DNA from: Microbacterium oryzae
GTDB lineage: Bacteria > Actinomycetota > Actinomycetes > Actinomycetales > Microbacteriaceae
Direction of reading: 5' to 3'
DNA length: 64,000 bases
NCBI RefSeq assembly: GCF_009735645.1
Contig: NZ_CP032550.1
Span: 1,736,001 to 1,800,000 of the forward strand
A program made the translations under genes and the position numbers. This document shows positions 3,188 to 58,038 of the stretch, in pieces. The notes beneath the pieces were generated by a model. The model had not been told where the DNA came from and did no database searches. It saw only the letters and a list, made by a program, of their open reading frames with translations. How positions within the stretch are numbered: position 1 is the first letter of the stretch; every line of letters starts with the position of its first letter.

Positions 3188-3188
3188 C

Positions 3189-3962
3189 GTGCCCGAGGGC
3201 GATACCGTCCACCGCGCCGCACGCCGGCTGAACACCGCGCTCGCCGGTCGGGTCGTCACGCGCTTCGACCTGCGGGTGCCGCAGGCGGCGACGGCCGACC
3301 TCCGCGGCGAGACCGTGCATGACGTCGTCGCGCGCGGCAAGCACCTCCTGCACCGCATCGGCGAGTACACCCTCCACACGCACCTGCGCATGGAGGGCGA
3401 GTGGCACGTGTACGTCGACGGCGCGCGCTGGCGCCGTCCCGCGTACCAGGCGCGCGCGATCGTCGCGGTCGAGCGCGTGGAGGCGGTGGGCTTCGAGCTC
3501 GGCGTCGTCGAGCTGCTGCGCACGCGCGACGAGGAGCAGGCCGTGGGCTACCTCGGCCCCGATCCCCTCGGGCCCGACTGGGACCCGGACGAGGCCGCGC
3601 GGCGCCTGGCCGCCGACACCCGCGCCGCGCACGTGGCGCTGCTCGATCAGCGGAACGTCGCGGGATTCGGCACGGTCTTCGTGAACGAGATCCTGTTCCT
3701 CCGCGGCGTGCTGCCCACGCGCCCGATGGCGGAGGTGGACACGGCGGCGCTCGTCGCCCTGGGCGCGCGGACCATCCGCCGCAATGTGGAGGAGCGCAAG
3801 CGCACCTTCACGGGCGACGCGCGCCCCGGCCAGGGGATGTGGGTCTACGGACGCGAGCGGAAGCCCTGCCGGCGCTGCGGCACGCCGATCCGGATGACGC
3901 ATCTGGGCGCGGACCCCACGAAGGAGCGGCTCGCCTTCTGGTGTCCGGTCTGCCAGAGCTGA
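3189..3962 (+). CDS. nei: Fpg/Nei-family DNA glycosylase (endonuclease VIII-like)
   Basis: 257 aa, normal length for the family. The mature N-terminus PEGDTV gives the catalytic Pro2 and Glu3 of the Fpg/Nei fold; a GKHLL segment near residue 50 fits the conserved lysine. The C-terminus carries a zinc finger with CRRC and CPVC pairs. These enzymes excise oxidised bases and nick the strand by beta/delta elimination. The GTG start at 3189 is fixed because the protein must begin M-P-E, and it lies one base after the lhr stop, so the two genes are translationally coupled. Nei rather than Fpg is favoured by the PEGDT start (Fpg usually has PELPE). Confidence 0.93.
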   Translation: MPEGDTVHRAARRLNTALAGRVVTRFDLRVPQAATADLRGETVHDVVARGKHLLHRIGEYTLHTHLRMEGEWHVYVDGARWRRPAYQARAIVAVERVEAVGFELGVVELLRTRDEEQAVGYLGPDPLGPDWDPDEAARRLAADTRAAHVALLDQRNVAGFGTVFVNEILFLRGVLPTRPMAEVDTAALVALGARTIRRNVEERKRTFTGDARPGQGMWVYGRERKPCRRCGTPIRMTHLGADPTKERLAFWCPVCQS

Positions 3963-4020
3963 GCCGGAGCACGCCCTGAGGCGCTCAGGCTCTCACGCGC
4001 TCGCCCACCCGAGACAGAAC

Positions 4021-4047
4021 GACGGCCCCGGCGGTGCCGGGGCCGTC
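4021..4047. terminator. Intrinsic terminator between convergent genes
   Basis: Perfect 10-bp stem GACGGCCCCG (4021-4030) with its complement (4038-4047), extendable to 12 bp with a 3-nt loop. It lies between the 3' ends of nei (+) and the hexapeptide-repeat gene (-) and can serve both. No U-tract, as is common in high-GC actinobacteria. Confidence 0.75.
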
Positions 4048-4053
4048 GAGGCT

Positions 4054-4461
4054 TCACGCTGCGAGCAGGAAGCCCTTGCGGTCGGTGGTGACAGCCATGC
4101 CCTCGCGGATGGTCTCGTCGTCGCCGATGCGGGATCCGGGTGCGACGCGCGCGCCCTCCCCCACGTTGGTGCGGACTCCGATGTGAGCGCTCGCGCCGAT
4201 CATGGCGCCGGGGCCGATGTGGGCCCCCGCTTCGATCGTCGCCTTCGGCCCGATGAGCGCGTTGGAGTCGATCCACGCGCCGCTCGCGACGCGCGCTCCC
4301 GCGGAGATCCGCGCCCCCGGTTCGACATAAGCGCCCGCTTCCACACGCGCGTCGGGATGGACCTTCGCACCGGTGGCGATCAGTCCACGTCCGTTCACAT
4401 GCTTGCGATAGCGCAGCTGTTCGCCGTGGTCATTCTCGATGTCGATGTAGTTCTTACCCAC
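4054..4461 (-). CDS. Hexapeptide-repeat (left-handed beta-helix) protein
   Basis: 135 aa. From about residue 30 to 120 the sequence is a run of [AIV]-G-x-x-A-x hexapeptides (for example VEAGAY, ISAGAR, IEAGAH, VGEGAR), the signature of left-handed beta-helix proteins related to LpxA-type acyltransferases and gamma carbonic anhydrases. The N-terminal part (DIENDHGEQLRYRK) is not a recognised domain. It is much shorter than typical acyltransferases and no catalytic His is clearly placed, so it may be only a structural helix or a partner protein. It stands alone, with a bidirectional terminator on its 3' side. Confidence 0.75.
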   Translation of the reverse strand: MGKNYIDIENDHGEQLRYRKHVNGRGLIATGAKVHPDARVEAGAYVEPGARISAGARVASGAWIDSNALIGPKATIEAGAHIGPGAMIGASAHIGVRTNVGEGARVAPGSRIGDDETIREGMAVTTDRKGFLLAA

Positions 4462-4649
4462 GATGCCCTTCTGCGGCCCCGGGCGAGGCCGGACACCTGA
4501 GACAACGCGTCACCCGCGGAAGGTATTCCCGTGAATGAACAATCTCGCTGCTGCTCGGTGTCCCCGTCTCGACGGGGGCGTTCTGGTTGTTATCGGCGGT
4601 TTCGGTTGGGCGGATCACCCGCGGGCGCCCGCGCGCGTAGGCTGACGGG

Positions 4650-5366
4650 ATGGCGCACCGCAAGGCATCTGCACCCCGCGGTGGGGGCGCGCGGCAGCCG
4701 CGGAAGACGACGCGCAGCGCGACGCCGAGACGCGCGGACGTCCAGCGCCCCGCTCCCGCACCCGTCGAGGATCCGCGCACCTTCCGTCTGGGCGTGATCC
4801 CGGGCGCGACGCCGGGCCGCTGGGTGGATCGATGGCACGAGCGGAAGCCGCACGTGCATCTCGAGCTCGTGCCGCTCGCCGTCGCCGAGCAGCGCTCCGC
4901 TCTCGACGAGGGCCGCGTCGACGCCGCGATCGTGCGCCGTCCGCTCGAGGAGGACGGCCTCCACGTCATCGCGATGTACGACGAGCTGCCCGTCGTGGTC
5001 GTCGCGAGCGATTCCGACCTCACGGTCGTCGACGAGCTCGAGGCGTCCGACCTCGCGGGATCGGTGCTCATCGTCCCGAAGGACGACGTCCTCGGGCCGC
5101 TCGACCTGGCCGGCACCATCCCGCCGGTCTTCGAGGCGCCGGGCACCACCGAGGACGCGATCGCGACGGTCGCCACCGGCGTCGGCGTGACCGTCGTTCC
5201 CATGTCGCTCGCCCGGCTGCATCACCGGCGCGACGTCACGTACCGTCCGCTCGTCGGCGGGCCGGTCTCCGCGGTCGCCTTCGCCTGGCTGCGCGACCGC
5301 GACTCCGACGACGTGCAGGACTTCGTGGGCATCCTCCGCGGTCGGACGGCGAACTCCTCGCGCTGA
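4650..5366 (+). CDS. LysR-type substrate-binding domain protein lacking the HTH
   Basis: 238 aa. After a basic, low-complexity N-terminus (about 40 residues rich in Arg, Pro, Ala), the rest resembles the effector-binding domain of LysR regulators: FRLGVIPGATPG at the start, then a DAAIVRRPL segment and a late ATVATGVGVTVVP segment typical of periplasmic-binding folds. No winged HTH is present. It could bind DNA through the basic tail or only sense a ligand; this is unknown. A TAGGCT hexamer at 4638-4643 lies 6 nt before the ATG with no Shine-Dalgarno, so the mRNA is probably leaderless. Confidence 0.75.
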   Translation: MAHRKASAPRGGGARQPRKTTRSATPRRADVQRPAPAPVEDPRTFRLGVIPGATPGRWVDRWHERKPHVHLELVPLAVAEQRSALDEGRVDAAIVRRPLEEDGLHVIAMYDELPVVVVASDSDLTVVDELEASDLAGSVLIVPKDDVLGPLDLAGTIPPVFEAPGTTEDAIATVATGVGVTVVPMSLARLHHRRDVTYRPLVGGPVSAVAFAWLRDRDSDDVQDFVGILRGRTANSSR

Positions 5367-5371
5367 GGCGT

Positions 5372-6175
5372 TCATGCGCGCCGCGCTCCCCGGCTCAGAC
5401 GGAACACCACGGCCGCGACGAGCACGATGACGGCCACCGTGACCGCGGTGACGCCGATGGCCGCGCTCGCGGGCTCGTCCGACAGCCGCCCCACCGCGAG
5501 CCACGAGAGCCCCCACGCGAGCGCGAGAGCGGGCGCCAGTCGGCCGCGCCCCCGCCATCCGAGGGCCACGCCGATCAGCGCGACCACCGCGAGCACGGCG
5601 ATGCCGAACACGGCGGCGGCGTCGGCCCAGTCAGCGGGCGCCGTCTGGGTGAGCCAGGCGGCGGTGTTCGCCACCGTCGCGAGCGTCACCCAGCCGAGGT
5701 GCAGACCGGTGACACCGTCGACGAGCACCGCCGAGACGACGCCGTCGCCCGGCGCGCGGACGGCGACCCGGAAGGTGACGGCGAGCACGGCGGCGAGCGC
5801 GAAGATGACCGCCACGGTGGCGGGGAGGTTCAGGAACTGCGCGGCGAGCAGCCAGCAGCCGTTGAGCACCTCGGAGGCGGCGATCCACCATCCGATCGCA
5901 CGCTGCCGGGGGTTGACGCGCTGCCCCGGCAGCGCCTGCCAGACCGCGTACAGCACGAGGCCGATGTAGATCGGGGTCCAGATGGAGAAGGCGGGACGAG
6001 CGGGAGCGAGATACGAGGCGTCGGCGTCGAGCGCGCCGCCCTGCAGGTCCTGCACGGCCGTGCCGCCGAAGAGGCCCACGCCGACCATGGCCGCGACGAG
6101 CATGAAGCAGGTGGCCGAGATCACGGCGACCTGCCGCAGGATGTCCCGCCCTCCCGCCTTCCGCGTCGTGTCCAT
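5372..6175 (-). CDS. TspO/MBR-family tryptophan-rich membrane protein
   Basis: 267 aa integral membrane protein with about seven hydrophobic segments. The ARPAFSIWTPIYIGLVLYAVWQ region (about residues 57-78) matches the conserved Trp-Pro core of TspO/CrtK proteins. Canonical bacterial TspO has about 160 aa and five helices, so this is the longer form found in actinobacteria. TspO proteins bind porphyrins and other tetrapyrroles; the ligand here is unknown. It converges with the LysR-domain gene with only a few bases between stops. Confidence 0.8.
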   Translation of the reverse strand: MDTTRKAGGRDILRQVAVISATCFMLVAAMVGVGLFGGTAVQDLQGGALDADASYLAPARPAFSIWTPIYIGLVLYAVWQALPGQRVNPRQRAIGWWIAASEVLNGCWLLAAQFLNLPATVAVIFALAAVLAVTFRVAVRAPGDGVVSAVLVDGVTGLHLGWVTLATVANTAAWLTQTAPADWADAAAVFGIAVLAVVALIGVALGWRGRGRLAPALALAWGLSWLAVGRLSDEPASAAIGVTAVTVAVIVLVAAVVFRLSRGARRA

Positions 6176-6240
6176 GCGCCCACGCTAACTTCGGCGCGGG
6201 CCTGGAATCCGGGGGTTGACAGAGGCCCCCGGCGAGATCG

Positions 6241-6717
6241 CTAGCCGCCCAGGAGCTCGATCTGCTCCGCGAGGTAGGGCGCGAGCGGCCGCAGGAAACC
6301 GGCCGACGACCACCTCACCATCAGGGCGCCGTCCTGCCAGGAGAGCGGGCCATCCGCCGCGCCGCGGGCGACCGCATCGACATCGACGGGCGTCCAGTCG
6401 ACGTGCAGCGTCTCGCCCTCCGCGAAGCCGCCGCGGAACGCCGCTGCCCGCACCTCGGCCCGCTGCCGCTGCGACTCCGCCGCGTAGCCGCGGCGCACCT
6501 CCTCGGCCGCGCGCAGGATGGTCCCGGTCGCGAGGAGCGCGTCGTCCGTCAGCAGGAGCACGCCCAGGTGCCACGCCTCCCCGACCCGGACGATGCGGGG
6601 CCGCCCGCCGAGCGCGCTGCGCAGGCGCCCGGGGCGACGCAGCTCGCCGAGCCCCTCGCGCGGTCGAGCGACCAGGCGCGAGCGCGCGTCGGCCAGCAGC
6701 CCGTGCAGATCGTCCAC
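6241..6717 (-). CDS. Conserved hypothetical protein
   Basis: 158 aa, soluble, Arg/Ala/Leu rich, no signal peptide or membrane segment. I recognise no catalytic motif. The sequence has an ordered hydrophobic pattern (RIVRVGEAWHLGVLLLTDDALLATG about residues 40-64) that looks like real coding, and codon third positions are GC-rich like its neighbours. It lies 22 bp downstream of the (p)ppGpp synthetase gene on the same strand, so the two are probably cotranscribed. Confidence 0.6.
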   Translation of the reverse strand: MDDLHGLLADARSRLVARPREGLGELRRPGRLRSALGGRPRIVRVGEAWHLGVLLLTDDALLATGTILRAAEEVRRGYAAESQRQRAEVRAAAFRGGFAEGETLHVDWTPVDVDAVARGAADGPLSWQDGALMVRWSSAGFLRPLAPYLAEQIELLGG

Positions 6718-6739
6718 GGGCCCACCCTACGACGCGGCG

Positions 6740-7453
6740 CTACGCCGGGGTCGGGCTGTCGTCGTCTGTGCGCGCCAGCAGCTGCAGCGGAGCGATCGGC
6801 GCGGGGCGCTCGCCGTGCAGCTCCCGGTGGAGCCGCTCCATCCGGTCATCGAGCTCGGCCGCGGTGAGCGCGGCGTCACGCAGGCTGTCGGTGAGCCGAG
6901 CGGGCACCTGGCTGGCGTACTTGTAGTAGATCTTGTGCTCGAGGCTGGCCCAGAAGTCCATGGCGATGGTGCGGAACTGCACCTCCACGGGCACCGGCAC
7001 CGTTCCCGTGGAGAGGAACACCGGCACCTCGACGATCGCGTGCAGGCTCTTGTAGCCGTTCGGCTTCGGGTGCGCGATGTAGTCCTTCACCTGGACGACG
7101 GTCACGTCGTCCTGACCGGCGAGCAGATGGAACAGCCGGTAGGCGTCGGTGACGAAGCTGCACGTGACGCGGACGCCGGCGATGTCGAGCAGCTGCGAGC
7201 GGATGGCCTCGATCGTCGGCTCGATGCCCTTGCGATCCGCCTTCTCGGCGATGCTGTCGAGCGTCTTCAGCCGGCTGGAGACGTGCTCGATCGGGTTGTA
7301 GGAGTGCTGCTGCTCGAAGTCCTCGCGCAGGATGGAGAGCTTCGTCTCGATCTCGCGCATGCCGAAGCGGTATTCGTTGAGGAATCGCTGCATCTCGTCG
7401 CGCATCGCCCGCGCCTGCTCGAGCATGTCGTCGTCGACGGGGATCGAGCTCAT
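6740..7453 (-). CDS. Small alarmone synthetase (GTP pyrophosphokinase, RelA/SpoT domain)
   Basis: 237 aa with the start chosen at ATG 7453 (MSSIPVDDD); an upstream in-frame start at 7531 would add a non-conserved basic leader. The RelA/SpoT synthetase domain is clear: SRLKTLDSI, the LLDIAGVRV strand (about residues 88-96), HPKPNGYKSLH and VEVQFRTIAMDFWASLEHK. There is no HD hydrolase, TGS or ACT domain, so it is a single-domain synthetase that would make (p)ppGpp from ATP and GDP/GTP during stress. Expression is likely set transcriptionally, as for other small synthetases; no specific control site was seen. Confidence 0.9.
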   Translation of the reverse strand: MSSIPVDDDMLEQARAMRDEMQRFLNEYRFGMREIETKLSILREDFEQQHSYNPIEHVSSRLKTLDSIAEKADRKGIEPTIEAIRSQLLDIAGVRVTCSFVTDAYRLFHLLAGQDDVTVVQVKDYIAHPKPNGYKSLHAIVEVPVFLSTGTVPVPVEVQFRTIAMDFWASLEHKIYYKYASQVPARLTDSLRDAALTAAELDDRMERLHRELHGERPAPIAPLQLLARTDDDSPTPA

Positions 7454-45850: not shown

Positions 45851-45877
45851 GAAACCCCCTCACGAGGAGGGGGTTTC
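45851..45877 (-). terminator. Terminator of the former tRNA-Ser gene
   Basis: GAAACCCCCT (45851-45860) pairs with AGGGGGTTTC (45868-45877), 10-bp stem, 7-nt loop. It lies 2 bp beyond the CCA end of the tRNA fragment on the minus strand, the usual place of a tRNA terminator. Confidence 0.75.
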
Positions 45878-45879
45878 TC

Positions 45880-45905
45880 TGGCGGTGACGGTGGGATTTG
45901 AACCC
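45880..45905 (-). other. Truncated tRNA-Ser 3' end, probable att site of an integrative element
   Basis: On the minus strand the 26 nt read as a T-loop half, GGGTTCAAATCCC, acceptor strand ACCGTCACC and GCCA, as in actinobacterial tRNA-Ser with a GGTGACG 5' acceptor. The rest of the tRNA is missing: the 5' T-stem strand is broken beyond GGG, and no GGTGACG start or anticodon arm occurs in the next 150 nt. A terminator follows. This is the half-tRNA left when an element integrates in the tRNA 3' end; the restored tRNA should lie at the other end, outside the window. The next 147 bp (45906-46052) hold no gene, but contain GTTACCGC repeats and TTACCGCAGTAA, perhaps integrase arm sites. Confidence 0.75.
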
Positions 45906-46052
45906 GTATCGACGGCTGGAGACTCCGGAGCCGGACCTCGGAACCCGCGTCTTTATGCGGAAGTTGCGCACAACTGGATGCATCGACGAGCAGGTGCTTG
46001 CAGGTGTCCTGTTACCGCTGTGTTACCGCAGTAACGGCGGTAGACCTCCCCC

Positions 46053-46109
46053 TGTTGACGCCGAGTGAAAACTGACCCCCAGGCGCCGAACGAAAACTGA
46101 CCCCCTCGG
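46053..46109 (+). repeat. IS21 left terminal inverted repeat
   Basis: 57 bp, matching the right end (53463-53519) except about three positions near the outer tip. Contains two direct copies of GAAAACTGACCCCC (46067-46080 and 46092-46105), 25 bp apart, the multiple transposase sites expected at IS21 ends. Confidence 0.9.
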
Positions 46110-46121
46110 CACCCTGGGAGG

Positions 46122-47435
46122 GTGATCGCTGTGGAGGACTGGGCCGAGATTCGTCGGCTGCACAAGTCGGAGAAGTTGGGCATCAAGCAGATCGCCAGCA
46201 AGTTGTCGATCTCGAGGAACACCGTCCGGCGCGCGTTGCGGTCAGATGAGCCACCTCGGTATGAGCGCGGGGCGTCGGGGTCGCTGGTGGATCCGTTCGT
46301 GCCGCGGATCATGCTGCTGCTCAAGGAGTACCCGCGGATGCCGGCGACGGTGATCGCCGAGCGGGTCGGGTGGACGCATTCGGCGTCGATCTTCCGCGCG
46401 AAGGTGTCGGAGCTGCGGCCGCTGTTCGCCGGCATCGACCCGGCAGACCGCACCGAATACACCGCGGGCGACATCATCCAGTGCGACCTGTGGTTCCCGG
46501 CGGTGCCGATCCCGGTGGCGCCGGGGCAGGCGGAGATCCTGCCGGTGCTGGTGATGACCCTCGGCTATTCGCGGTTCCATTCGGCGCTGATGATCCCGTC
46601 CCGTCAGGGCGGGGACATCCTCGAGGGCATGTGGCAGATCATCCAGCGGCTCGGGAGGGTGCCGCGCACGTTCGTGTGGGACCGGGAGTCCGCCATCGGC
46701 GGCACGGGGAAGCTCACGGTGCCTGCGGCGACGTTCGCGGGGGTGCTGTCGACGAGGTTCCGTCTGGCGCCGGCGGCGGATCCGGAGTTCAAGGGCATGG
46801 TGGAGCGCAACAACCACTACTTCGAGACCAGCTTCCTGCCGGGGCGCACGTTCACGAGCCCGGGGGACTTCAACCGTCAGCTGCAGGACTGGCTGGCACG
46901 CACGGCGAACGTCCGCACCGTCCGGTCAATCCAGGCACGCCCCGTGGATCTGCTGGAGGAGGATCTACGGGCGATGATCGACCTGCCGCGCACGGCGCCG
47001 TCGACGGGGCTTCGGACGCGGGTGCGGCTGGCGCGGGACTACTACGTCCGCGTCGACGCGAACGACTACAGCGTGGATCCGCGGATGATCGGCAAGAACG
47101 TCGACATCACCGCCACCGCCGACGAGGTGCTCGTCTTCTGCGACGGCGTGCTCGTGGCCCGTCACCGGCGCGCATGGGGCAGCAAGCAGGTCGTGAAGGA
47201 CCCCGCGCACGTGGAAACCGCCAAGCGGTTGCGGCACGAGTTCAACGACCTCGCCCACGCCCGCGCCGAGAAGGCCCGCCACGCGGCGCTCGGCACGAAA
47301 GCACACGCCGACGGCCACCAGGTGCAGATCCGTGCCCTGACCGACTACGACGCCCTCTTCGGCGTCACCTTCACCACCACCCCCGACACTCAGCAGGCCG
47401 CCACGAGCGGCGCGATCACGAAGGAAGCACGATGA
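46122..47435 (+). CDS. istA: IS21 family transposase IstA
   Basis: 437 aa. N-terminal HTH (LGIKQIASKLSISRNTVRRAL, about residues 19-39), then a DDE integrase core: IQCDLWFPAVPI (first Asp), FVWDRESAIGG (second Asp) and GMVERNNHYFETSF with the Glu. The C-terminal part includes the RVDANDYSVDPR region typical of IS21 transposases. GTG start 46122 lies 12 bp inside the left repeat; GGGAGG precedes it. Overlaps istB by 4 bp (ATGA). Confidence 0.92.
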   Translation: MIAVEDWAEIRRLHKSEKLGIKQIASKLSISRNTVRRALRSDEPPRYERGASGSLVDPFVPRIMLLLKEYPRMPATVIAERVGWTHSASIFRAKVSELRPLFAGIDPADRTEYTAGDIIQCDLWFPAVPIPVAPGQAEILPVLVMTLGYSRFHSALMIPSRQGGDILEGMWQIIQRLGRVPRTFVWDRESAIGGTGKLTVPAATFAGVLSTRFRLAPAADPEFKGMVERNNHYFETSFLPGRTFTSPGDFNRQLQDWLARTANVRTVRSIQARPVDLLEEDLRAMIDLPRTAPSTGLRTRVRLARDYYVRVDANDYSVDPRMIGKNVDITATADEVLVFCDGVLVARHRRAWGSKQVVKDPAHVETAKRLRHEFNDLAHARAEKARHAALGTKAHADGHQVQIRALTDYDALFGVTFTTTPDTQQAATSGAITKEAR

Positions 47436-48296
47436 CACCCACAGCCCCCACCCTCGACACCGCCCGCGACACGGCGCTGGAGACGACGATCGCGGCGCAG
47501 AGCGCGCTGATCACACCGAACGGCGAGAACCTCCACTCCCGCCTGAGCTACCTCGCGCGCGTGATGAAGACCCCCCACGATCGGACGGGTCTGGGAGGAC
47601 CTCGGCACGAGGGCGCGGGAGGAGAACTGGTCCCACGAGGAGTACCTCGCCGCCGTCCTCGAACGCCAAGTCGCCGACCGCGAGTCCGCGGGCACGACGA
47701 TGCGGATCCGCACCGCCCACTTCCCGCAGGTGAAGACCCTCGAGGACTTCAACCTCGACCACCTGCCCAGCTTGCGGCGCGACGTGCTGGCGCATCTGGC
47801 GACGGCGACGTTCATCCCGAAGGCGGAGAACGTGATCCTGCTGGGCCCTCCCGGGATCGGGAAGACGCACCTGGCGATCGGGCTCGGAGTGAAGGCCGCC
47901 CACGCCGGCTACAGCGTGCTGTTCGACACCGCGAACAACTGGATCACCCGCCTCGCGAACGCTCACCACAAGGGGCAGCTGGAGGAGGAGCTGAAGAAGA
48001 TCCGCCGCTACAAGCTGATCATCGTCGACGAGATCGGCTACATCCCCTTCGACACCGACGCCGCCAACCTCTTCTTCCAACTCGTCGCCTCCCGCTATGA
48101 GCAGGGCTCCATCCTCGTCACCAGCAACCTGCCCTTCGGACGCTGGGGCGAGACCTTCTCGGATGACGTCGTCGCCGCGGCGATGATCGACCGCCTCGTC
48201 CATCACGCCGAAGTCCTCACCCTCACCGGCGACTCCTACCGCACCCACGGCCGCCGCGACCTCCTTCGCCAAGGCGAACGCGCCGGCAAGAGCTGA
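47432..48296 (+). pseudogene. istB: IS21 helper ATPase IstB, frameshifted at poly-C
   Basis: The first 47 codons read in frame from ATG 47432 (MTPTAPTLDTARDTALE... to RVMKTP). A C6 tract (47571-47576) has one C too many; the continuing IstB sequence (TIGRVWEDLGTRAREENW) is in the +1 frame. From there the protein is normal: Walker A LGPPGIGKTH, IIVDEIGYIPFD Walker B, SNLPFGRW and GDSYRTHGRRD at the C-terminus. The downstream frame alone has an ATG at 47700 giving 198 aa with the AAA+ domain. Either a real mutation, a programmed +1 slip, or a sequencing error in the homopolymer. IstB oligomers pick the target for IstA. Confidence 0.82.
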
Positions 48297-48354
48297 GCGC
48301 TCGACGTAGCGGGCGTTTCGCGCTTGTGCCGGCGCCCGCCCGCTCGACGAATCG

Positions 48355-49251
48355 CTACACATGGGGCTCGGGCGTGTAGATGATCGTCCAGGTCTCCCCG
48401 AAGTCGCTTGTGGTCGCGATCCCTCGGCGGTCGACGATGACGATCTCCTCCCCAGGGGTGACGGCGAGTGCTTGAGCGGCGCCTGTGTACTCGCCGCCGG
48501 TGGCCCACTTGCCGCTGGGCAGCTCGTAGACGAGGGTGCCGTCGACGCTGGTGCCGATGAGGAATCCGAGGTGGTTCACCGCGATGAGCATCATCCGCGG
48601 TGCCTCCGGGTCCAGTTGGAATGTCTTTCCCGCGTCGTGGCTGACGTAGAGCCCTTCGGGCGCGGTGGCGTAGACGGTATCGGGATCGTCGGGGTCGACG
48701 AGGACATCCCGCGCGTCGACGCCGACGCCGTCGTTCCAGGTGCGGCCACCGTCGTCGGAGCGGTAGACGATGCCGAAGTTGTTGGCATAGATGCGATCCG
48801 GGTCGGACTCGCTGACGGTGAGGTCGTGGAAGTCGGCCTCACCGGTGAAGGCAACGTTCGTCCAGGTGCGGGCGGTGTCGTCGGAGCGGATGAGGCCGAG
48901 GTTCTGGGCGCCGAAGTGATCGGGACTGCTCGGCCCGGGGTGCCCGGAGGCGTAGAACGTGCCGTTGACGGAAGTGAACCCCATGGCGTCGAAGTCGTTA
49001 CCTGCGAGGGGTCCGGTCACTTCTGCTGACGGACGAAGCGTGTCGAGCTGATAGATGCCGCCGTGGCTGGCGATGAGCAGCCCACCGGTCTGCGGGTCGG
49101 GGGCGAGCCCGTGGATGTGCTCCAGGGCGACCTGGGTGGCGTGTTCGGGGTCCGCGGGGCGGCTCAGGGAGCACCCCGCGAGCACGGGGGCGGCGGCCGC
49201 GAGGGCGGCGAGGGCGGCGATGAGGCGGCGTCGGATGGGGCGGACGGGCAT
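48355..49251 (-). CDS. BNR-repeat (sialidase-like) beta-propeller lipoprotein
   Basis: 298 aa from ATG 49251. Signal peptide with lipobox PVLAGC (Cys about residue 27). Asp-box repeats typical of BNR propellers: SDDTARTWTNV, SDDGGRTWNDG, SHDAGKTFQLD, TSDFGETWTII. This type of protein (often called F510_1955-like glycosylhydrolase) is found beside DUF305 and copper genes in actinobacteria; no hydrolase activity is shown. Last gene of the copper cargo, converging with istB across 58 bp that hold a weak GC hairpin. Confidence 0.85.
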   Translation of the reverse strand: MPVRPIRRRLIAALAALAAAAPVLAGCSLSRPADPEHATQVALEHIHGLAPDPQTGGLLIASHGGIYQLDTLRPSAEVTGPLAGNDFDAMGFTSVNGTFYASGHPGPSSPDHFGAQNLGLIRSDDTARTWTNVAFTGEADFHDLTVSESDPDRIYANNFGIVYRSDDGGRTWNDGVGVDARDVLVDPDDPDTVYATAPEGLYVSHDAGKTFQLDPEAPRMMLIAVNHLGFLIGTSVDGTLVYELPSGKWATGGEYTGAAQALAVTPGEEIVIVDRRGIATTSDFGETWTIIYTPEPHV

Positions 49252-49330
49252 GGGAGATCTCCGGGTTCGTTCGGGCAGGGCAGAGGCCGGTGGCCGCCCG
49301 TGTGATGGGGCGGCCACCGGCGTGGCGGGC

Positions 49331-49942
49331 TCATAGCTGGGTGAGCAGCTCCTGCATCTCGGCGATCTCGGCGGTCTGGCCCGCGGTGATCTTCTCGGCG
49401 AGGGCAACAGCCTCGGGGTTCTGGCCGTTGTCGACCTCGGCCTGGGCCATCTTGATCGCGCCCTGGTGGTGCATGGTCATCTGCTCGAGGAACAGCGCGG
49501 ACGCCGTCTCACCGTCGGCTTCATCGAGGGCGGTCATGTCCTCCTCGGACATCATGCCGCCGCCGTGGTCCATGCCTCCCATGTCGGCGTCCTGGCCCCA
49601 GGCTTCGAGCCACTGGTTCATGGTGTCGATCTCGGGGCCCTGAGCGGCTTTGATCCGCTCGGCGAGGGCGACGACATCCGGGTGGACACCGTCCTTGGCC
49701 AGCAGCGTGTCGGACATCTCGATGGCCTGCTGGTGATGCATGACCATCTCCATCGCGAACGTCACATCGGCGTCGTTGAAGACGGCGTCGCTGGCTTCGG
49801 TGGAGGGGGTGGGCAGGCCGCTGGCGGTGCTGCCGCCGTGGTCCATGCCCTCCATGTCGGACCCGCCGGTGTCGCTGCAGCCGGCGAGGATGAGCGCGGT
49901 GGCGAGGACGCCGGCGCTGAGCGTGATGGTGCGGAACTTCAT
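49331..49942 (-). CDS. DUF305 (ferritin-like) His/Met-rich lipoprotein
   Basis: 203 aa. Lipobox LILAGC (Cys about residue 22), then Met/His-rich linker (MEGMDHGG). Two DUF305 half-repeats: FAMEMVMHHQQAIEMSD and FLEQMTMHHQGAIKMAQ, each with the MHHQxAIxM helix, joined by MGGMDHGGGMM. DUF305 proteins are linked with copper or other metal handling at the cell surface; the His/Met pattern suits Cu(I)/Cu(II) binding. Confidence 0.92.
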   Translation of the reverse strand: MKFRTITLSAGVLATALILAGCSDTGGSDMEGMDHGGSTASGLPTPSTEASDAVFNDADVTFAMEMVMHHQQAIEMSDTLLAKDGVHPDVVALAERIKAAQGPEIDTMNQWLEAWGQDADMGGMDHGGGMMSEEDMTALDEADGETASALFLEQMTMHHQGAIKMAQAEVDNGQNPEAVALAEKITAGQTAEIAEMQELLTQL

Positions 49943-50010
49943 GAGGATCTGTCTCCTTGGTCGTTGTTGAGGGCGCGCTGAAGCGCGCGGGATCTGCGAA
50001 GCAGATCACC

Positions 50011-50454
50011 TCACCTGCGACTGATGGACAGGACGTGCAGATCGGGTGGAGCAGACGGCGCTTCCACGAGCACGGGGGCCGAGAGCGGGGGCGCCAGCGA
50101 ATGAGGCACGAACGCGGCTCGAGCGGGCCGGATGGCGAGAACGATGCCGACAGCGAGCAGCGCGAGCACGCACGCCATGAACGCCATCGCGTCCATACCG
50201 CCGCCACAGCCATCCCCGCTGCACGGTTCGGCAGTAGTGCCATCGGGTCCCGTCGCGCCGACGGTCGTGGCGCTGTCGGAGTGGTGGGTGCTCTCGGCGA
50301 TGACGGCGGGGGCGTGGTGCGCGGTGCCGGTGCTGAGCACGTGCATGCCGAGCAGCCCGATGAGCACCCCGAGGACGGCGGCGGAGGTGAGCAGGAAGGC
50401 GTGCGCCCACGTGGCGCCCGGGTGCATCGCCCGGCGCAGCGTCATCACGCTCAT
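50011..50454 (-). CDS. DUF6153-like membrane protein
   Basis: 147 aa from ATG 50454 with GGCGGTGAG upstream. Helix at about 16-38, then a His-rich extracytoplasmic loop (STHHSDSAT) with a C-x-G-D-G-C pair, a second helix at about 88-106 and a Pro/Ala-rich tail ending ISRR. This two-TM layout fits DUF6153, seen in actinobacterial copper clusters. Role unknown; a metal-binding loop is likely. Confidence 0.7.
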   Translation of the reverse strand: MSVMTLRRAMHPGATWAHAFLLTSAAVLGVLIGLLGMHVLSTGTAHHAPAVIAESTHHSDSATTVGATGPDGTTAEPCSGDGCGGGMDAMAFMACVLALLAVGIVLAIRPARAAFVPHSLAPPLSAPVLVEAPSAPPDLHVLSISRR

Positions 50455-50498
50455 CCGCTCACCGCCTTTCCTGTTCAGCACTCTACGAAATCTGCCTG

Positions 50499-52730
50499 TC
50501 AGGCGCCGCGCAGCACCGCGGCGGTGGTGACCTCGGGGCGCATGTCCAGTCGCCGAAGCAGCTGGGCGTTGAGGGCGACGACGATGGTGGACAGGGACAT
50601 CAGGATCGCGCCGACCGACATCGGCAGCACGAACCCGAACGGGGCGAGCACGCCCGCTGCGAGCGGGACGGCGATCAGGTTGTACCCGGCAGCCCACCAC
50701 AGGTTCTGCTTCATCTTCCGGTAGCTCGCCCGCGACAGCTCCATCACCGACAGCACTGAACGGGGGTCGTCGCTGGCGAGGATGACCCCCGCAGAGGCGA
50801 TCGCGACATCCGTTCCCGCACCGATCGCCACACCGACATCGGCCTGCGCGAGTGCGGGCGCGTCGTTGACGCCGTCGCCGACCATGACAACCTTGCGGCC
50901 CTCGTCCTGCAGCTGCTTCACCTTGGAGGACTTGTCCTCCGGGCGCACCCCGGCGAAGAACCGGTCGATGCCCAGCTCGCCGGCAACGGAGGCGGCGACC
51001 GCCTCGGCGTCGCCGGTGATCATCACCACCTGCACGCCACGGGCATGCAGCGCATCGATCGCCTCGCGGGACTCACTGCGGATCTCATCAGCCAGGCGCA
51101 GCGCTCCGGCGACCTGCCCGTCGACGAGGACGTGCAGGATGATCGCGCCCTCCGCGCGCCACTCGTCCGCCACCGGCAGCTCACCCGCGCCCTCCTGCTC
51201 GAGCAGATACGGGCCGCCGACCTGCACGAGGTGCCCCTCGACGGTGGCGCGGACGCCGACCGCCGGTGATGACTCGAACCCAGAGGAGGCAGGCACGGTC
51301 AGCTGCTTCTCGGCGGCGCCGTTCACGATCGCGCGAGCCAGCGGATGCTCCGAGTCCGCTTCGGCGGCCGCCGCGAGGGCGAGCAGCCGGTCGGCGTCGA
51401 GCCCCGCAGTCGGGTGGATGGCGGTGACGGCGGGGGTGCCCTTGGTGAGGGTGCCGGTCTTGTCGAACAGCACCGTGTCGATCGTGCGCATGCTCTCCAG
51501 CGCCAGGCGATCCTTGATCAGCACCCCGCCACGCGCGGCACGCTCGGTCGCGATCGACACCACCAGCGGGATGGCCAGGCCCAGGGCATGCGGGCAGGCG
51601 ATCACCAGGACCGTGATCGTACGGACAACGGCCTGGTCGGGCAGGCCGATCACCGTCCACACGACGGCGGTGATGACGCCGGCGATCAGCGCGAACCAGA
51701 ACAGCAGCGCCGCGGCGCGGTCCGCGATCCGCTGCGCCCGGGAGGTGGAGTTCTGCGCTTCGGCGACGAGCCGCTGGATGCCCGCGAGGGTGGTGTTCTC
51801 GCCGATCGCGGTGATCTCCACGCGCAGTCCCGAGTCGGTGGCGACGGTGCCCGCGACGACCTGGTCGCCTTCGGAGCGGCGCACCGGGCGGGACTCGCCG
51901 GTGATCATGGCCTCATCCATGCTCGCCGAGCCCTGCACGATCCGGCCATCTGCCGGGACGCGACCGCCCGGGCGGACCACCACGACGTCGCCGACCTGCA
52001 GGTCGGCGGGGGCGACGGTAACGGTGGTGTCGCCCTCGACGCGCTCGGCCTCGTCCGGCAGGAGCGCTGCCAGGGAGTCCAGGGCGGAGGTGGTCTGCGC
52101 CAGGGAGCGCATCTCGATCCAATGCCCCAGCAGCATGATCACGATGAGAAGCGCGAGCTCCCACCAGAAGTCGAGATCGTGGTGCAGCAGCCCGACGCTC
52201 GCACCCCACGAGGCCAGGAACGCGACCGTGATCGCCAACCCGATCAGCAGCATCATCCCGGGCCTGCGGGTGCGCAGCTCGCTCACCGCGCCGGTGAGGA
52301 ACGGGGCCCCGCCCCACACGTACATCACCGTGCCGAGCACGGGCGAGATCCATACCATCCACGCCACGTCGGGCAGCGAGTAGCCCAGCAGCATGGCGAA
52401 CATGCTCGAGAAGCCCACGACCGGGACGGCGAGAGCGAGCATGATCCAGAACAGCCGGCGGAACTGCGCGACATGATCACCGTGACCGGCATGCCCACCG
52501 TGACCGCTGTGCCCGGCGGATGCGGCGTGGTCATGGCCTGCGTAGTCATGGCCGGAATGCAGGTGGTGGTCACTGCGGTCACGGTGGGCTTCGTGCTCGG
52601 CCGGCTCCGTCGCCACAGCCTCCGGCATACCGGCGGCGGTCGGCTCGGGACCTGCGTGGTCCGTCACGCGCTCCGGCTCGGCGTGGCGGTGGGCGCTCTG
52701 ACCGTGCATCGTGTGGTCGTGCTGGCTCAT
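50499..52730 (-). CDS. copB: Copper-translocating P1B-type ATPase (CopB class)
   Basis: 743 aa. The N-terminal 86 residues hold 19 His in GHDYAGHDH-type repeats instead of a CxxC HMA domain. Then eight helices with TGES (277-280), the metal-site CPH (379-381), phosphorylation motif DKTGTLT (423-429), and GDGVNDAPAL. CPH with a His-rich N-terminus defines CopB/P1B-3-like ATPases, which export Cu(I)/Cu(II), possibly Ag. Central pump of the cargo. Followed on the same strand by the DUF6153 gene; csoR and the HMA protein lie upstream. Confidence 0.94.
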   Translation of the reverse strand: MSQHDHTMHGQSAHRHAEPERVTDHAGPEPTAAGMPEAVATEPAEHEAHRDRSDHHLHSGHDYAGHDHAASAGHSGHGGHAGHGDHVAQFRRLFWIMLALAVPVVGFSSMFAMLLGYSLPDVAWMVWISPVLGTVMYVWGGAPFLTGAVSELRTRRPGMMLLIGLAITVAFLASWGASVGLLHHDLDFWWELALLIVIMLLGHWIEMRSLAQTTSALDSLAALLPDEAERVEGDTTVTVAPADLQVGDVVVVRPGGRVPADGRIVQGSASMDEAMITGESRPVRRSEGDQVVAGTVATDSGLRVEITAIGENTTLAGIQRLVAEAQNSTSRAQRIADRAAALLFWFALIAGVITAVVWTVIGLPDQAVVRTITVLVIACPHALGLAIPLVVSIATERAARGGVLIKDRLALESMRTIDTVLFDKTGTLTKGTPAVTAIHPTAGLDADRLLALAAAAEADSEHPLARAIVNGAAEKQLTVPASSGFESSPAVGVRATVEGHLVQVGGPYLLEQEGAGELPVADEWRAEGAIILHVLVDGQVAGALRLADEIRSESREAIDALHARGVQVVMITGDAEAVAASVAGELGIDRFFAGVRPEDKSSKVKQLQDEGRKVVMVGDGVNDAPALAQADVGVAIGAGTDVAIASAGVILASDDPRSVLSVMELSRASYRKMKQNLWWAAGYNLIAVPLAAGVLAPFGFVLPMSVGAILMSLSTIVVALNAQLLRRLDMRPEVTTAAVLRGA

Positions 52731-52799
52731 CTGAGCCTCCTCGGCGAGTGGCCGCTGTGCGGCGGGGATTGCAGGAGATGGGTACGGCGTTCGGCCGCG

Positions 52800-53126
52800 T
52801 CAGGCGCCGGTGTTGACGGTGTAGCCAGCCTCGGCCACCGCCGCGTGCAGCGCGGCACGCTCAAGCGGTGCGGCGCTTCGTACCGTGACGGTCGATGTGC
52901 CGCCAGCGGTGAGCGCGACGGACACGTCCTGCACGCCCGGCACAGCCGACAGCTCTTCGGTGACGCTGCCCACGCAATGCGCGCACGTCATCCCGTCCAC
53001 CAGCAGGGTGGTCGACGTTCCCGCCTCCATGGCCGGCTTCTGCGTCGTGGAGGAGTTCGGGGCCGCGCAGCAGGCGCATCCCGCCCCTGAGTCCTTGAGG
53101 CCGAGTTCGATTCGTTCGATGGTCAT
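52800..53126 (-). CDS. HMA-domain copper chaperone-like protein
   Basis: 108 aa. A Cys-rich N-terminus (GCACCA at 16-21) precedes a heavy-metal-associated domain with GMTCAHC (45-51) and the usual beta-alpha-beta pattern (VGSVTEELSAVPGV, VTVRSAAPLERAALHAAVAEAGYTV). It likely carries Cu(I) to the ATPase or to CsoR. The extra Cys cluster is uncommon for CopZ. Lies 26 bp downstream of csoR. Confidence 0.88.
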   Translation of the reverse strand: MTIERIELGLKDSGAGCACCAAPNSSTTQKPAMEAGTSTTLLVDGMTCAHCVGSVTEELSAVPGVQDVSVALTAGGTSTVTVRSAAPLERAALHAAVAEAGYTVNTGA

Positions 53127-53152
53127 GATGATTGTCCTTTCGACGATGAGGG

Positions 53153-53434
53153 TCAGGAGCGGACCAGGCGCGCGATCGCTGCGTTGGCTTCGCGGATCTT
53201 CTCCTCCGCGACCGGACCGCCCTGAGCGGTGGCCTCGGCGACGCAGTGGCTGAGGTGGTCACCGAGCAGCGACAGCGCGACCACTTCGAGGGCCTTCGTG
53301 GCCGCGGACACCTGCGTGAGGATGTCGATGCAGTAGTCGTCGTCCTCGACCATCCGCGCGATCCCCGCTACCTGACCCTCCGCCCGACGCAACCTCTTCA
53401 GCAGCGCTTGCTTGTTGTCCGTGTACCCGTGCAC
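53153..53434 (-). CDS. csoR: CsoR-type copper-sensing repressor
   Basis: 93 aa, four-helix DUF156 repressor. Metal ligands C35 (DDYCID), H60 and C64 (DHLSHC) give the C-H-C triad of the CsoR copper sensors; RRAEGQVAGIARMVEDD is the family's first helix. First gene of the cargo operon. It would sit on the operator at 53446-53462 until Cu(I) binds. The DNA site directly touches the transposon's right inverted repeat. Confidence 0.93.
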   Translation of the reverse strand: MHGYTDNKQALLKRLRRAEGQVAGIARMVEDDDYCIDILTQVSAATKALEVVALSLLGDHLSHCVAEATAQGGPVAEEKIREANAAIARLVRS

Positions 53435-53445
53435 GCCACCAGGAT

Positions 53446-53462
53446 ATACCCCCCGGGGGTAT
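53446..53462. promoter_or_regulatory. CsoR operator
   Basis: ATACCCCC-C-GGGGGTAT, a 17-bp palindrome, with 12 bp between it and the csoR start; it matches the G/C-tract type with flanking TA seen for CsoR sites. It ends exactly where the right repeat begins (53463). Confidence 0.8.
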
Positions 53463-53519
53463 CCGAGGGGGTCAGTTTTCGTTCGGCGCCTGGGGGTCAG
53501 TTTTCGCTCGGCGTTGACA
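53463..53519 (-). repeat. IS21 right terminal inverted repeat
   Basis: 57 bp complementary to 46053-46109 except about three bases. Contains the inverted GGGGGTCAGTTTTC copies at 53467-53480 and 53492-53505. Its finding here, beyond csoR, puts the copper genes inside the transposon. Confidence 0.9.
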
Positions 53520-53547
53520 CCCCTGCTTGCCTCGCCGAGGATTCCGG

Positions 53548-54135: not shown

Positions 54136-55251
54136 TCAGGCACCTCCAGCGATTCGCGGGGTACCCGCGTCTTCCTCGGCATTCGAAAGGGCGCCGTCGC
54201 CGAACCACGGCTCGCCGTCGAACTCAGCGTCCATGAAGCCCCCTGCATCCATGTTGATGAGTGTCGGCTCGTGCAGTTCGTCGGGGACGAACCGAACGTC
54301 GTCGGGATGACAGTAGATGTACTCACGAGCGCTCTCAGCGGTGTGCTCGTTGAACAGCCGCTCCATTGCTGTGGTCCCGCGTTCTGTGCGGTCGAGGCGG
54401 CCACCTACTACCGCAGCCCTGATCTCCTGAATCATCGGGTCGCCCGCCTCGAACCGTTCGATCATGACCATCGGGTCGCTCATGAGCAGTCCCAGCTTGC
54501 GCGTGATCGGGACGGAGATCCCCCACGCTGTGGCGAAGCCAACCCCTTCCCACGGGTCGACATCACTCGAGTCGCGGATCAGGCTCACCGGCGCATCGCA
54601 GGTGATGAGGGAACGACGGTCGAATCGAACGAGCAACCACGGGCGCGTAACGAGGTACTTCGCGAGGTGTTCAGCGGTGTCGATCATGTGCTTGATGTGA
54701 CCGACAGTCGAGATCGTGATCGGCGGGCCGCCTGGTTGGGTGGCTTCGTCCCAGATTCGCTGCGCCTGCTCCTCCGTTGCGTCGAAACCGAGGTTCTTCT
54801 TGATCCAGCGCGTGACGTTCGCTCGACCACCGGCGCCGACTTCGACTCGGACCATCTTCGCTTGCAGGCGCTCGATGGTCTTGCGGGTGTCGGGCCCGCG
54901 GACTGCTTGGAGCGCGAGGTAGTACGACAGCGACATCCGGGCCTCTTCGGAGACCGGGAACTCTCCTGCCTCCATGCGTCGGATGATCCCCACGGCTTCG
55001 CCCTCGAGAACGCTGAGCATCTTTTCAAAGCCGTCCGGCTCATTAGCACCGGGGACCGTGTGGAAGTGCGTCTGCGCAGCCACATTCTTCACAGAAGTGG
55101 TGAAGGAGGCCCGAGACCGGTCGAGCGGGACGGCGGTGACGCGATCTTGCGTGCCCGCGAAGCCACGAAGATATCCCTGCGGCACATAGTGGTGCAGCTT
55201 GGCGGTATTCCCGTTCCCCATGCTCGGAATGGTCTCAAACCCCGCCGACAT
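54136..55251 (-). CDS. DUF4238 domain protein
   Basis: 371 aa from ATG 55251 (ATG 55221 is an alternative; neither has a clear Shine-Dalgarno). The DUF4238 N-terminus is clear, KLHHYVPQGYLRGFAG. Later blocks (ALQAVRGPDTRKTIE, FDRRSLITCDAPVSLIRD, YCHPDDVRFVPDEL) fit the family. DUF4238 proteins occur in mobile islands; some are suspected nucleases with a HYVP motif, but no function is established. Confidence 0.85.
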   Translation of the reverse strand: MSAGFETIPSMGNGNTAKLHHYVPQGYLRGFAGTQDRVTAVPLDRSRASFTTSVKNVAAQTHFHTVPGANEPDGFEKMLSVLEGEAVGIIRRMEAGEFPVSEEARMSLSYYLALQAVRGPDTRKTIERLQAKMVRVEVGAGGRANVTRWIKKNLGFDATEEQAQRIWDEATQPGGPPITISTVGHIKHMIDTAEHLAKYLVTRPWLLVRFDRRSLITCDAPVSLIRDSSDVDPWEGVGFATAWGISVPITRKLGLLMSDPMVMIERFEAGDPMIQEIRAAVVGGRLDRTERGTTAMERLFNEHTAESAREYIYCHPDDVRFVPDELHEPTLINMDAGGFMDAEFDGEPWFGDGALSNAEEDAGTPRIAGGA

Positions 55252-55390
55252 TCGACGGCCACCGCCCGACCGGCCATGCCCGCACGTGGCAGTCGACTCG
55301 GTAGGCCCGGGCGCCGGAGCGCCCATGCGCGCGGAGTTTGCACGGCGGGGACCTCGGGTGGACCACCCGAAGTCCCTCGTTGCGCCGGCG

Positions 55391-56363: not shown

Positions 56364-57503
56364 TCACTTCTGGAGCGCGGTGGCGCGCTGCTTGTCGAGC
56401 GCTTCGGCGACCTCGTGGAGGTCGTCCTCGAACAGCTCGGCATAGGTGTCGAGGGTCATGGTGGCGGAGGCGTGGCCGAGCATGCGCTGGACGACCTTCA
56501 CGTTCGCGCCGGCGCTGATCGCGAGGGACGCAGCGGTGTGACGCAGGTCGTGCGGCGTCACCCGCGGCATCACCGGCGGCACCTCCTCCCCGCGCGCCCG
56601 CGCCTCGTCCGCGGCCCGCTGATCTTCGGCGCGGATCCGCTTCACCGCGGCAGCGAACCACCCGGACATGCTGTTGCCCTGACTCAGGTACCCGCCCAAC
56701 TGCGCCGGCCACAGCAGCTCCTCCGCGGACTTGCCCTTGCAGGCGCGGGCGATGGCGTCGTCGAGGAACGCCGGGTAGGGGACTGTGCGGAACTTCTCCG
56801 GCTTCGGCGTGCCGAGCTGAACGTGTCCGTTGACGCGGACGGCGTTCTCGTTGACCCAGAAGCAGCGCCGCTGTCGGTCGACGTGCCGGATCTTCAGCCC
56901 GGTCACCTCGCCCCACCGCAGACCGGTGTAGGCGAGGAACCGCACGAAATCGGGGTACTTGGACGTCGCCGCCAGCCGCTCGACCTGCGCGTGCGTCAAG
57001 TACGGCTTCGCCTTGCGCTTCTTCTTCGGCGTCTTCACCTCCCGGGCCGGGTTGGCGAGGATTCGCCGGTCCCTCACCGCACCGTCGAGGATCGCGGCGA
57101 GGATCCCGTGCGCTCGCTTGACCGTCGTCGCCGACCGGCGGGCGCTCAACTCGGCGACCCACTTGCGGATCTCGGTGTGCTGGATCGTGTTGATCTTGCG
57201 GAGGCCCCAGCGGGGCGCGACGTGCACCCTCCAGGAGCTCTCATCGCTGTGCCAGGTGGAAGGCTTCACAGCGGCGGCGTGCGCGAGCAGCCAGTCCTCG
57301 CCGAGCTTTCCCACGGTCACGTTGCCGTCGCTGACGGAGACATAGGTCCCCTTGTTCACGGCGGTCTCGACCTCGTTGATAAACGCGACCGCGTCCATCT
57401 TCCGGCGGAACCCGCCCCGGCGGGTTGGGCGCCCGTCAGGGCGGCGATACCGGGCCTCCCAGCGCAGCCCGTTCTTCGTCTGGTACGAGTAGGCACTTCC
57501 CAT
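56364..57503 (-). CDS. int: Tyrosine-type site-specific integrase
   Basis: 379 aa from ATG 57503. N-terminal arm-binding domain (about 1-60), core-binding SAM-like domain (about 62-165), and catalytic domain with R196 (TGLRWGE), H318-x-x-R321 (HDLRH), H344 (LGHAS) and Y354 (DTYAELF), the complete active site. It probably excises and integrates the element at the tRNA-Ser 3' end (45880). Expressed toward the att side. The upstream 304 bp have no gene. Confidence 0.93.
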   Translation of the reverse strand: MGSAYSYQTKNGLRWEARYRRPDGRPTRRGGFRRKMDAVAFINEVETAVNKGTYVSVSDGNVTVGKLGEDWLLAHAAAVKPSTWHSDESSWRVHVAPRWGLRKINTIQHTEIRKWVAELSARRSATTVKRAHGILAAILDGAVRDRRILANPAREVKTPKKKRKAKPYLTHAQVERLAATSKYPDFVRFLAYTGLRWGEVTGLKIRHVDRQRRCFWVNENAVRVNGHVQLGTPKPEKFRTVPYPAFLDDAIARACKGKSAEELLWPAQLGGYLSQGNSMSGWFAAAVKRIRAEDQRAADEARARGEEVPPVMPRVTPHDLRHTAASLAISAGANVKVVQRMLGHASATMTLDTYAELFEDDLHEVAEALDKQRATALQK

Positions 57504-57807
57504 CGCACACGCTCTCTTCCTGATGATCCGAATGTCTATGAGTTCGTGGCGATACCGGGTGGCATGCCTGATGTCATGCGACGGCCGGTCGCGCTGCCCT
57601 TCGAGGCGCACGGCCAGCGGTCGCGAATGGTCCGCCTGTGGCGGGAGAATCACCGTTCGACGACGGTGAGAATCTGCGGAGCCCGGCAGGCGCCAGCGTG
57701 CGCTGCCGCTGGCGGGACGACTCGTCCGCCAGAGCACGCACGTGCGACGGCAGCGACATCCTCGGCACCGCGCATGCCGGCGCGCGGCATCGGCGGGCGG
57801 ACGCGGC
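57504..57807. other. Intergenic region upstream of int
   Basis: 304 bp between int and the excisionase-like gene. Only short frames without plausible starts are seen. It must hold the int promoter; no clear repeat or tRNA sequence is visible. Confidence 0.5.
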
Positions 57808-58038
57808 TCATCGCATCTCCTCGGAGGTGCTCGTGAACTCCTGGGCGAGCAGCCATTCGTCGACCGCTGCGGGTCGATAGAAGATGCGGCGGCCGCCCGC
57901 TCGGATGTAATCCGGGCCGCGGCCGGTGACACGCCACTCGCTCAGCGTGCGCGTGCTCGTCTCCAAGCGCGCCGCGAGCGTCTCGGGCGTGATCAGTGAG
58001 TCCAGCAGCGGCGTGCTGATCGGGTTGACGATGCACAT
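57808..58038 (-). CDS. HTH domain protein, probable excisionase (AlpA/MerR-like)
   Basis: 76 aa. The core LITPETLAARLETSTRTLSEWRVTGRGPDYIRAGGRRIFYRPAAVDEWLL is a MerR-like winged HTH as in AlpA/Xis proteins that act as recombination directionality factors. Upstream of int on the same strand, so it likely pairs with int for excision. A 12-bp inverted repeat overlaps its leader. Confidence 0.8.
   Translation of the reverse strand: MCIVNPISTPLLDSLITPETLAARLETSTRTLSEWRVTGRGPDYIRAGGRRIFYRPAAVDEWLLAQEFTSTSEEMR

Follow-up and report, generated by a model that had tools for sequence, protein, structure and literature searches.

The window analysed here, a stretch of 64,000 nt from the Microbacterium oryzae contig NZ_CP032550.1, carries a six-gene copper-resistance operon inside the ends of one IS21-family insertion sequence (IS). 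The element spans 46053..53519 (7,467 bp); between its two arms, istA and istB lie on the plus strand, with the copper operon antisense to them (Table 1). It is likely a transporter-type IS (tIS) of the IS21 family that was inserted as one unit. The first-pass annotation of this DNA had described 57-bp inverted repeats framing istA, istB and six copper-related genes, and this layout is borne out by the near-identity of the ends and by the Pfam and NCBIfam assignments of the genes.

Terminal repeats and position of the right end

The left and right terminal inverted repeats (IRL and IRR) measure 57 nt each and are identical at 54/57 positions (95% complementary). Each arm contains two tandem 22-mers spaced 25 bp apart, and the outer tip of the IRL is TGTTGACG. 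The 22-mer core pattern, allowing up to 3 mismatches, occurs four times in the window, all within the two arms, with 0.50 occurrences expected by chance and four reached in 0/100 shuffles; the same pattern reveals no additional end-like repeat in the window. In the genome itself, a single contig of 3.04 Mb, the 39-bp tandem core (up to 2 mismatches) is found once per strand, at these two ends, and there is one full-length match to the element. Long terminal repeats with internal tandem repeats and TG...CA tips are as in the IS21 family, which the element also resembles in its IstA and IstB families and its probable short target duplication; it differs in the 5.17 kb lying between istB and the right end and in a frameshifted istB.

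IS21 relatives were gathered from plasmids and genomes, including genomes of the same order and class. In these relatives the IRR usually lies directly behind istB: its inner edge is 2-24 bp past the istB stop in 22 bare elements of a first set, and its outer end lies within 82 bp of that stop in 14 bare elements of a second. The 36 bare elements are copies and not lineages, with two from L038, L117 and L130 from one genome, and L119 and L131 from another; L119 and L126 stop at a contig end. L032 and L084 are the same element, counted once, L036 holds only istA and istB fragments, and elements with unresolved ends (L040, L083, L086, L087, L092, L114, L122, L132) stand outside the bare and passenger counts. 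In the window, the distance from istB to the IRR is 5,166 bp and is occupied by copper DNA. The right tip TGTCAACG is common to the window and 17/20 other elements (exceptions L091, L093 and L098), and is found at the left end in 2/20 relatives (L085, L094). Because its tip and place fit the right ends of relatives, the right repeat of the window is most likely a true IS21 right end. An origin of this repeat as an unrelated sequence was considered and rejected, as tip, layout and place agree with the right ends of relatives.

Related IS21 elements with passenger genes

Two IS21 elements, L081 and L082, come from two genomes that belong to a different family within the order, and their IstA is 58-59% identical to that of the window. 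Behind istB and ahead of the right end they carry genes for an ArsR-type regulator and for a cadmium-resistance transporter of the CadD family (107.1 bits against Pfam Cad). These elements are 99.6% identical over 3,276 bp and occupy separate sites, flanked by the duplications TGGTG and CGGTG. Related IS21s from Mycolicibacterium neoaurum (L030) and Mycobacterium sp. MBM (L031), with an IstA identity of 58%, carry a Clp_N gene antisense in the same slot (12175-12732 in L030, 3378-4139 in L031; family test on the L030 gene), with another short reading frame upstream of it. Homology between L030 and L031 (88%) is restricted to the element, and their duplicated flanks are CCCCA and CCTAC. Since the copies of both pairs sit at different duplicated sites, passenger-bearing IS21s of this branch move as units.

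The copper element shares with L081 and L082 the branch, the slot and a cargo of metal-resistance regulator plus transporter; their passengers differ in being cadmium-type genes, in their length of 1.05 kb and in lying on the same strand as istAB. With L030 and L031 it shares the branch, the slot and an antisense passenger, which is in their case not a metal gene. Duplications of 5 bp accompany both pairs.

A further arrangement in this branch is found on a Micrococcus luteus plasmid (L038, 1887-9178), where two direct IS21 copies surround about 2.9 kb with genes for an alpha/beta hydrolase and an aquaporin. The outer flanks match (ACCCC/ACCCC), no duplication surrounds the left copy alone, and the structure is probably a composite IS21 transposon. 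Additional sequence ahead of the right end is also seen in L120 (about 2.8 kb, around 3050-5881 in element orientation, with a serine-recombinase-like open reading frame (ORF)), L129 (about 0.4 kb) and L113 (about 0.3 kb). These three may contain nested elements or small ORFs and are not used as passenger support.

Target duplication and insertion site

The bases flanking the element, CCCCC and CCCCT, match at 4/5 positions, with a chance of 0.022 for at least 4/5 in local sequence. They represent a probable, imperfect target duplication; a 4-bp CCCC duplication is a possible alternative. Perfect duplications of 5 or 6 bp are present in 18/20 relatives compared (exceptions L051 and L038). L030 and L031 are left out of the 20-relative counts of duplications and end identity, and their ends were read by eye; the L031 duplication was also found by script, which gave none for L030. 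From the 4/5 duplication and the sister elements, we infer that the copper element itself transposed as a unit.

To the left of the element, 45869-45905 corresponds to the 3' end of a tRNA-Ser-like gene lacking its 5' part. An intact tRNA-Ser(CGA) gene, 92% identical to this stretch, is located about 40.6 kb rightward, outside the window. To the right, a DUF4238 protein gene (54136-55320) stands beside the element and a tyrosine integrase is encoded at 56364-57830. The tRNA-Ser fragment and the integrase mark a probable island boundary.

Copper cargo and its origin

A CsoR-type repressor, an operator-like palindrome, a copper exporter and an HMA protein are all present, judged by sequence only, and the operon would handle copper under CsoR control. 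Passenger 1 exceeds its Pfam cut-off and reaches 135.9 bits against the RicR model NF052430, under its cut-off of 175, and passenger 2 stays under the cut-offs of the NCBIfam CopZ models. The ATPase (passenger 3) shows in its translation a His-rich N-terminus and a CPH motif, which we take to be the mark of the CopB type. The coordinates of passenger 6 are those of the longest ORF, and the true lipoprotein start is probably further in.

Table 1 Features of the copper-bearing IS21 element and its flanks, in window positions
Feature	Position	Strand	Evidence
Probable target duplication, left copy (CCCCC)	46048..46052	.	flank comparison
IRL, two tandem 22-mers	46053..46109	+	repeat comparison
istA, IS21-family transposase, 437 aa	46122..47435	+	NF033546 177.9 bits (cut-off 160)
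istB, AAA+ helper ATPase, frameshifted	47432..48296	+	Pfam, NCBIfam, reading frames
Passenger 6, F510_1955-family BNR-repeat lipoprotein	48355..49407	-	NF045728 192.3 bits (cut-off 175)
Passenger 5, DUF305 / CopM-family protein	49331..49942	-	PF03713, NF049983
Passenger 4, DUF6153 protein	50011..50451	-	PF19650 58.3 bits (cut-off 27.7)
Passenger 3, copper-translocating P1B-type ATPase	50499..52730	-	TIGR01511 580.6 bits (cut-off 397)
Passenger 2, HMA / CopZ-like protein	52800..53126	-	PF00403 55.6 bits (cut-off 24.8)
Passenger 1, CsoR/RicR-type repressor	53153..53434	-	PF02583 101 bits
csoR operator-like palindrome ATACCCCCCGGGGGTAT, adjoining the right end	53446..53462	-	sequence
IRR, outer tip TGTCAACG	53463..53519	-	repeat comparison
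Probable target duplication, right copy (CCCCT)	53520..53524	.	flank comparison

Among 249 other congeners scored, with one candidate place each (116 more genomes were unscored), the operon (query 2346-7410) aligns end to end at 83% in four. These actinobacterial csoR-copZ-copB-DUF6153-DUF305-BNR clusters are alike in gene content and differ from the element in having no IS21 ends: an end-like 14-mer (up to 2 mismatches) is absent from the fetched 17-kb stretches at these four loci and at the resident locus described next, and tandem IS21 ends occur nowhere in the genomes of the four operon-bearing congeners. A second copper cluster resides in the genome of M. oryzae itself, at about 686 kb (L048, G000:C1:686266-691269), with 76% identity. 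Because the cargo of the element is closer to the clusters of the congeners than to this resident cluster, it is probably an acquired second copper cluster. The first-pass annotation had named copper genes always outside the ends as an observation that would refute its proposal; they are free of IS21 ends in the four congeners and at the resident locus, and are enclosed here. A Herbiconiux plasmid (NZ_AP025738.1) has a similar copper gene set, plus genes for a second ATPase and a four-helix copper protein.

Homology to the congeners ends at query 7410, the last base before the right repeat. In the three native loci read at this point (L043, L044 and the resident L048), the gene divergent from csoR encodes a cysteine-rich protein of 134 aa, which scores 36.5 and 29.8 bits against the Csp1 four-helix copper storage model TIGR04401 (cut-off 100). 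The alignment goes no further, and the element is without this Csp1-like gene. The operon had been called complete; its six genes are present, and the divergent gene of the native loci is missing.

The junction also affects the -35 region seen at csoR in native loci. In five of these (L043-L046 and L048), the bases TTGC or TTGA stand before the operator ATACCCC..GGGGTAT and form part of -35-like boxes, TTGCAT or TTGATA. The element has CTCGG in place of these bases, contributed by the inner edge of its right end, and the match to TTGACA, counted by eye, falls from 3 or 5 of 6 in native loci to 2/6.

Points against insertion as one unit, and rival explanations

Several observations weigh against an IS21 that carried its copper operon as a mobile, self-expressed unit. 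The copper element is a singleton in all searches, in which records very near the window may be excluded: its ends are found in 0/360 other congeners, the full-length element has no match in the 249 scored at one candidate place each, 0/68 matching plasmid records hold at least 80% of the element and 0/74 at least 80% of the stretch from csoR to the right end, and exact matches to the ends number 0 in genome_contigs and 0 in viral_contigs. The same cargo with the same ends at other loci, a check proposed in the first-pass annotation, was accordingly found in none of these collections. Empty sites, which it also proposed to look for, were not found either: the right flank has only weak partial matches, of 69.8 bits at best, in 26/226 other congeners, with two candidate places scored in each genome. 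The 4/5 duplication is imperfect and lies inside a C-run. Duplications are not universal in this class, as 7/17 further elements scored by script have one of 5 bp and 10 have none, two of these at a contig end. The identity between IRL and IRR is an oddity as well, at 50/53 in the window versus 38-45/53 in the 20 relatives; it could reflect a rearranged right end, and might go back to a composite ancestor or to conversion of one end by the other.

The transposition genes bear on present mobility. For IstA, Pfam Mu-transpos_C_2 is above and rve under its cut-off. istB has a frameshift near 47560-47570, overlooked in the first-pass annotation, that places the gene start and the ATPase part in separate reading frames. 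An AUG-initiated ORF (47700-48296) retains the IstB ATPase domain (NF038214 247.6 bits, cut-off 200) without the N-terminal part. Relatives with intact istB exist, and the gene is open in L082; the break means either a stalled element or a wrong base count in the assembly. In the same genome, no second IstA is found at E <= 1e-60 and no other IS21 IstB; the only other place above the IstB Pfam cut-off, at 37 bits, was rejected as a second IstB since its sequence, read by eye, is that of DnaA. With istB frameshifted and no other IS21 IstB found in the genome, the element is probably immobile now and its present mobility is doubtful. Autonomous expression of the csoR operon appears doubtful too, because the right end replaces the csoR -35 region, and the view that the module would be expressed wherever it lands is weakened; a promoter that uses the right end, or read-through from outside, is possible.

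Two other histories can be set against a single loaded IS21. One is a collapsed composite, in which two full IS21 copies once flanked the operon, and through deletions the left one lost its right end and the right one its istAB. The Micrococcus luteus plasmid shows that composites exist in this branch, and the unusual identity of the two ends would suit such an ancestor, but two precise deletions are required, the window has no further end-like repeat, and the cargo (48297-53462) holds no istA or istB remnant, the best chance match being 15 residues at E 0.34. The sister passenger elements, moreover, use the same slot without a second copy. One istA, one istB and two ends are present here, not the two IS copies around cargo that make a composite transposon, and we regard this history as unlikely. 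The other is that the right repeat is a solo end or the product of an unrelated event beside the copper operon, with nothing mobilised together. In its favour, no second copy of the joined structure was found and the operon occurs elsewhere without IS21 ends; however, the copper homology runs exactly up to the start of the right repeat on its inner side, the native divergent gene beside csoR is absent from the element, the outer flanks match at 4/5, and the genome contains no other IS21 end and no other IS21 IstB. This explanation is very improbable. One passenger-carrying IS21, as first proposed, and not two unrelated copies, is the reading that agrees with the type and place of the right end, the 4/5 duplication, the absence of istAB remnants and further ends in the cargo, and the sister elements.

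Discussion

In the tIS model favoured here, an IS21 of an actinobacterial branch would have gained the copper operon in the slot behind istB, ahead of its right end. The loaded IS21 would then have inserted as one unit, leaving a short target duplication, beside the tRNA-Ser fragment in a region that also encodes a tyrosine integrase. In the established IS21 mechanism, IstA binds the tandem repeats of both ends and IstB chooses the target, and the same roles would apply to this insertion. A wider proposal, that this branch repeatedly captures regulator-plus-resistance modules behind istB and so gives rise to compact metal-resistance transposons (copper here, cadmium-type in L081 and L082), with the copper join in the promoter and right-end sequence incorporated into the promoter of the cargo, is tentative.

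ISs carrying passenger genes are known as transporter ISs in excerpts of PMC9330008, PMC7986276 and PMC3129680. The copper element resembles these in that the ends of a single IS enclose passenger genes with no role in transposition. It differs in that its passenger load exceeds the IS itself and is a regulated metal operon, and no IS21-family tIS is named in the excerpts of the three papers. Excerpts of PMC7371123, PMC2516522 and PMC11092175 mention IS21 elements, none of them with passenger genes; the first contains the reverse arrangement, an IS21 transposase inside a Tn3-family transposon. Among the literature matches listed for IS21 in combination with copper, cadmium, metal or passenger genes, and for copper islands of Microbacterium, no title or excerpt describes such an element. 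According to excerpts of PMC3281130 and PMC9330008, the IS21-family element ISPve1 causes large deletions next to itself, and deletions of this kind could trim the edges of a cargo. The tIS kind is thus already known, and an IS21 whose cargo is a regulated metal operon of greater length than the IS appears to be a new variant; its CadD relatives suggest a recurring pattern.

IS21 serves as a structural model of transposition guided by an AAA+ ATPase. If the 5 kb behind istB was indeed carried, IS21 would be a direct vehicle for actinobacterial metal-resistance operons that needs no second IS copy, and annotation that ends at istB would overlook cargo of this kind. The slot that separates istB from the right end offers a definite place to look for capture.

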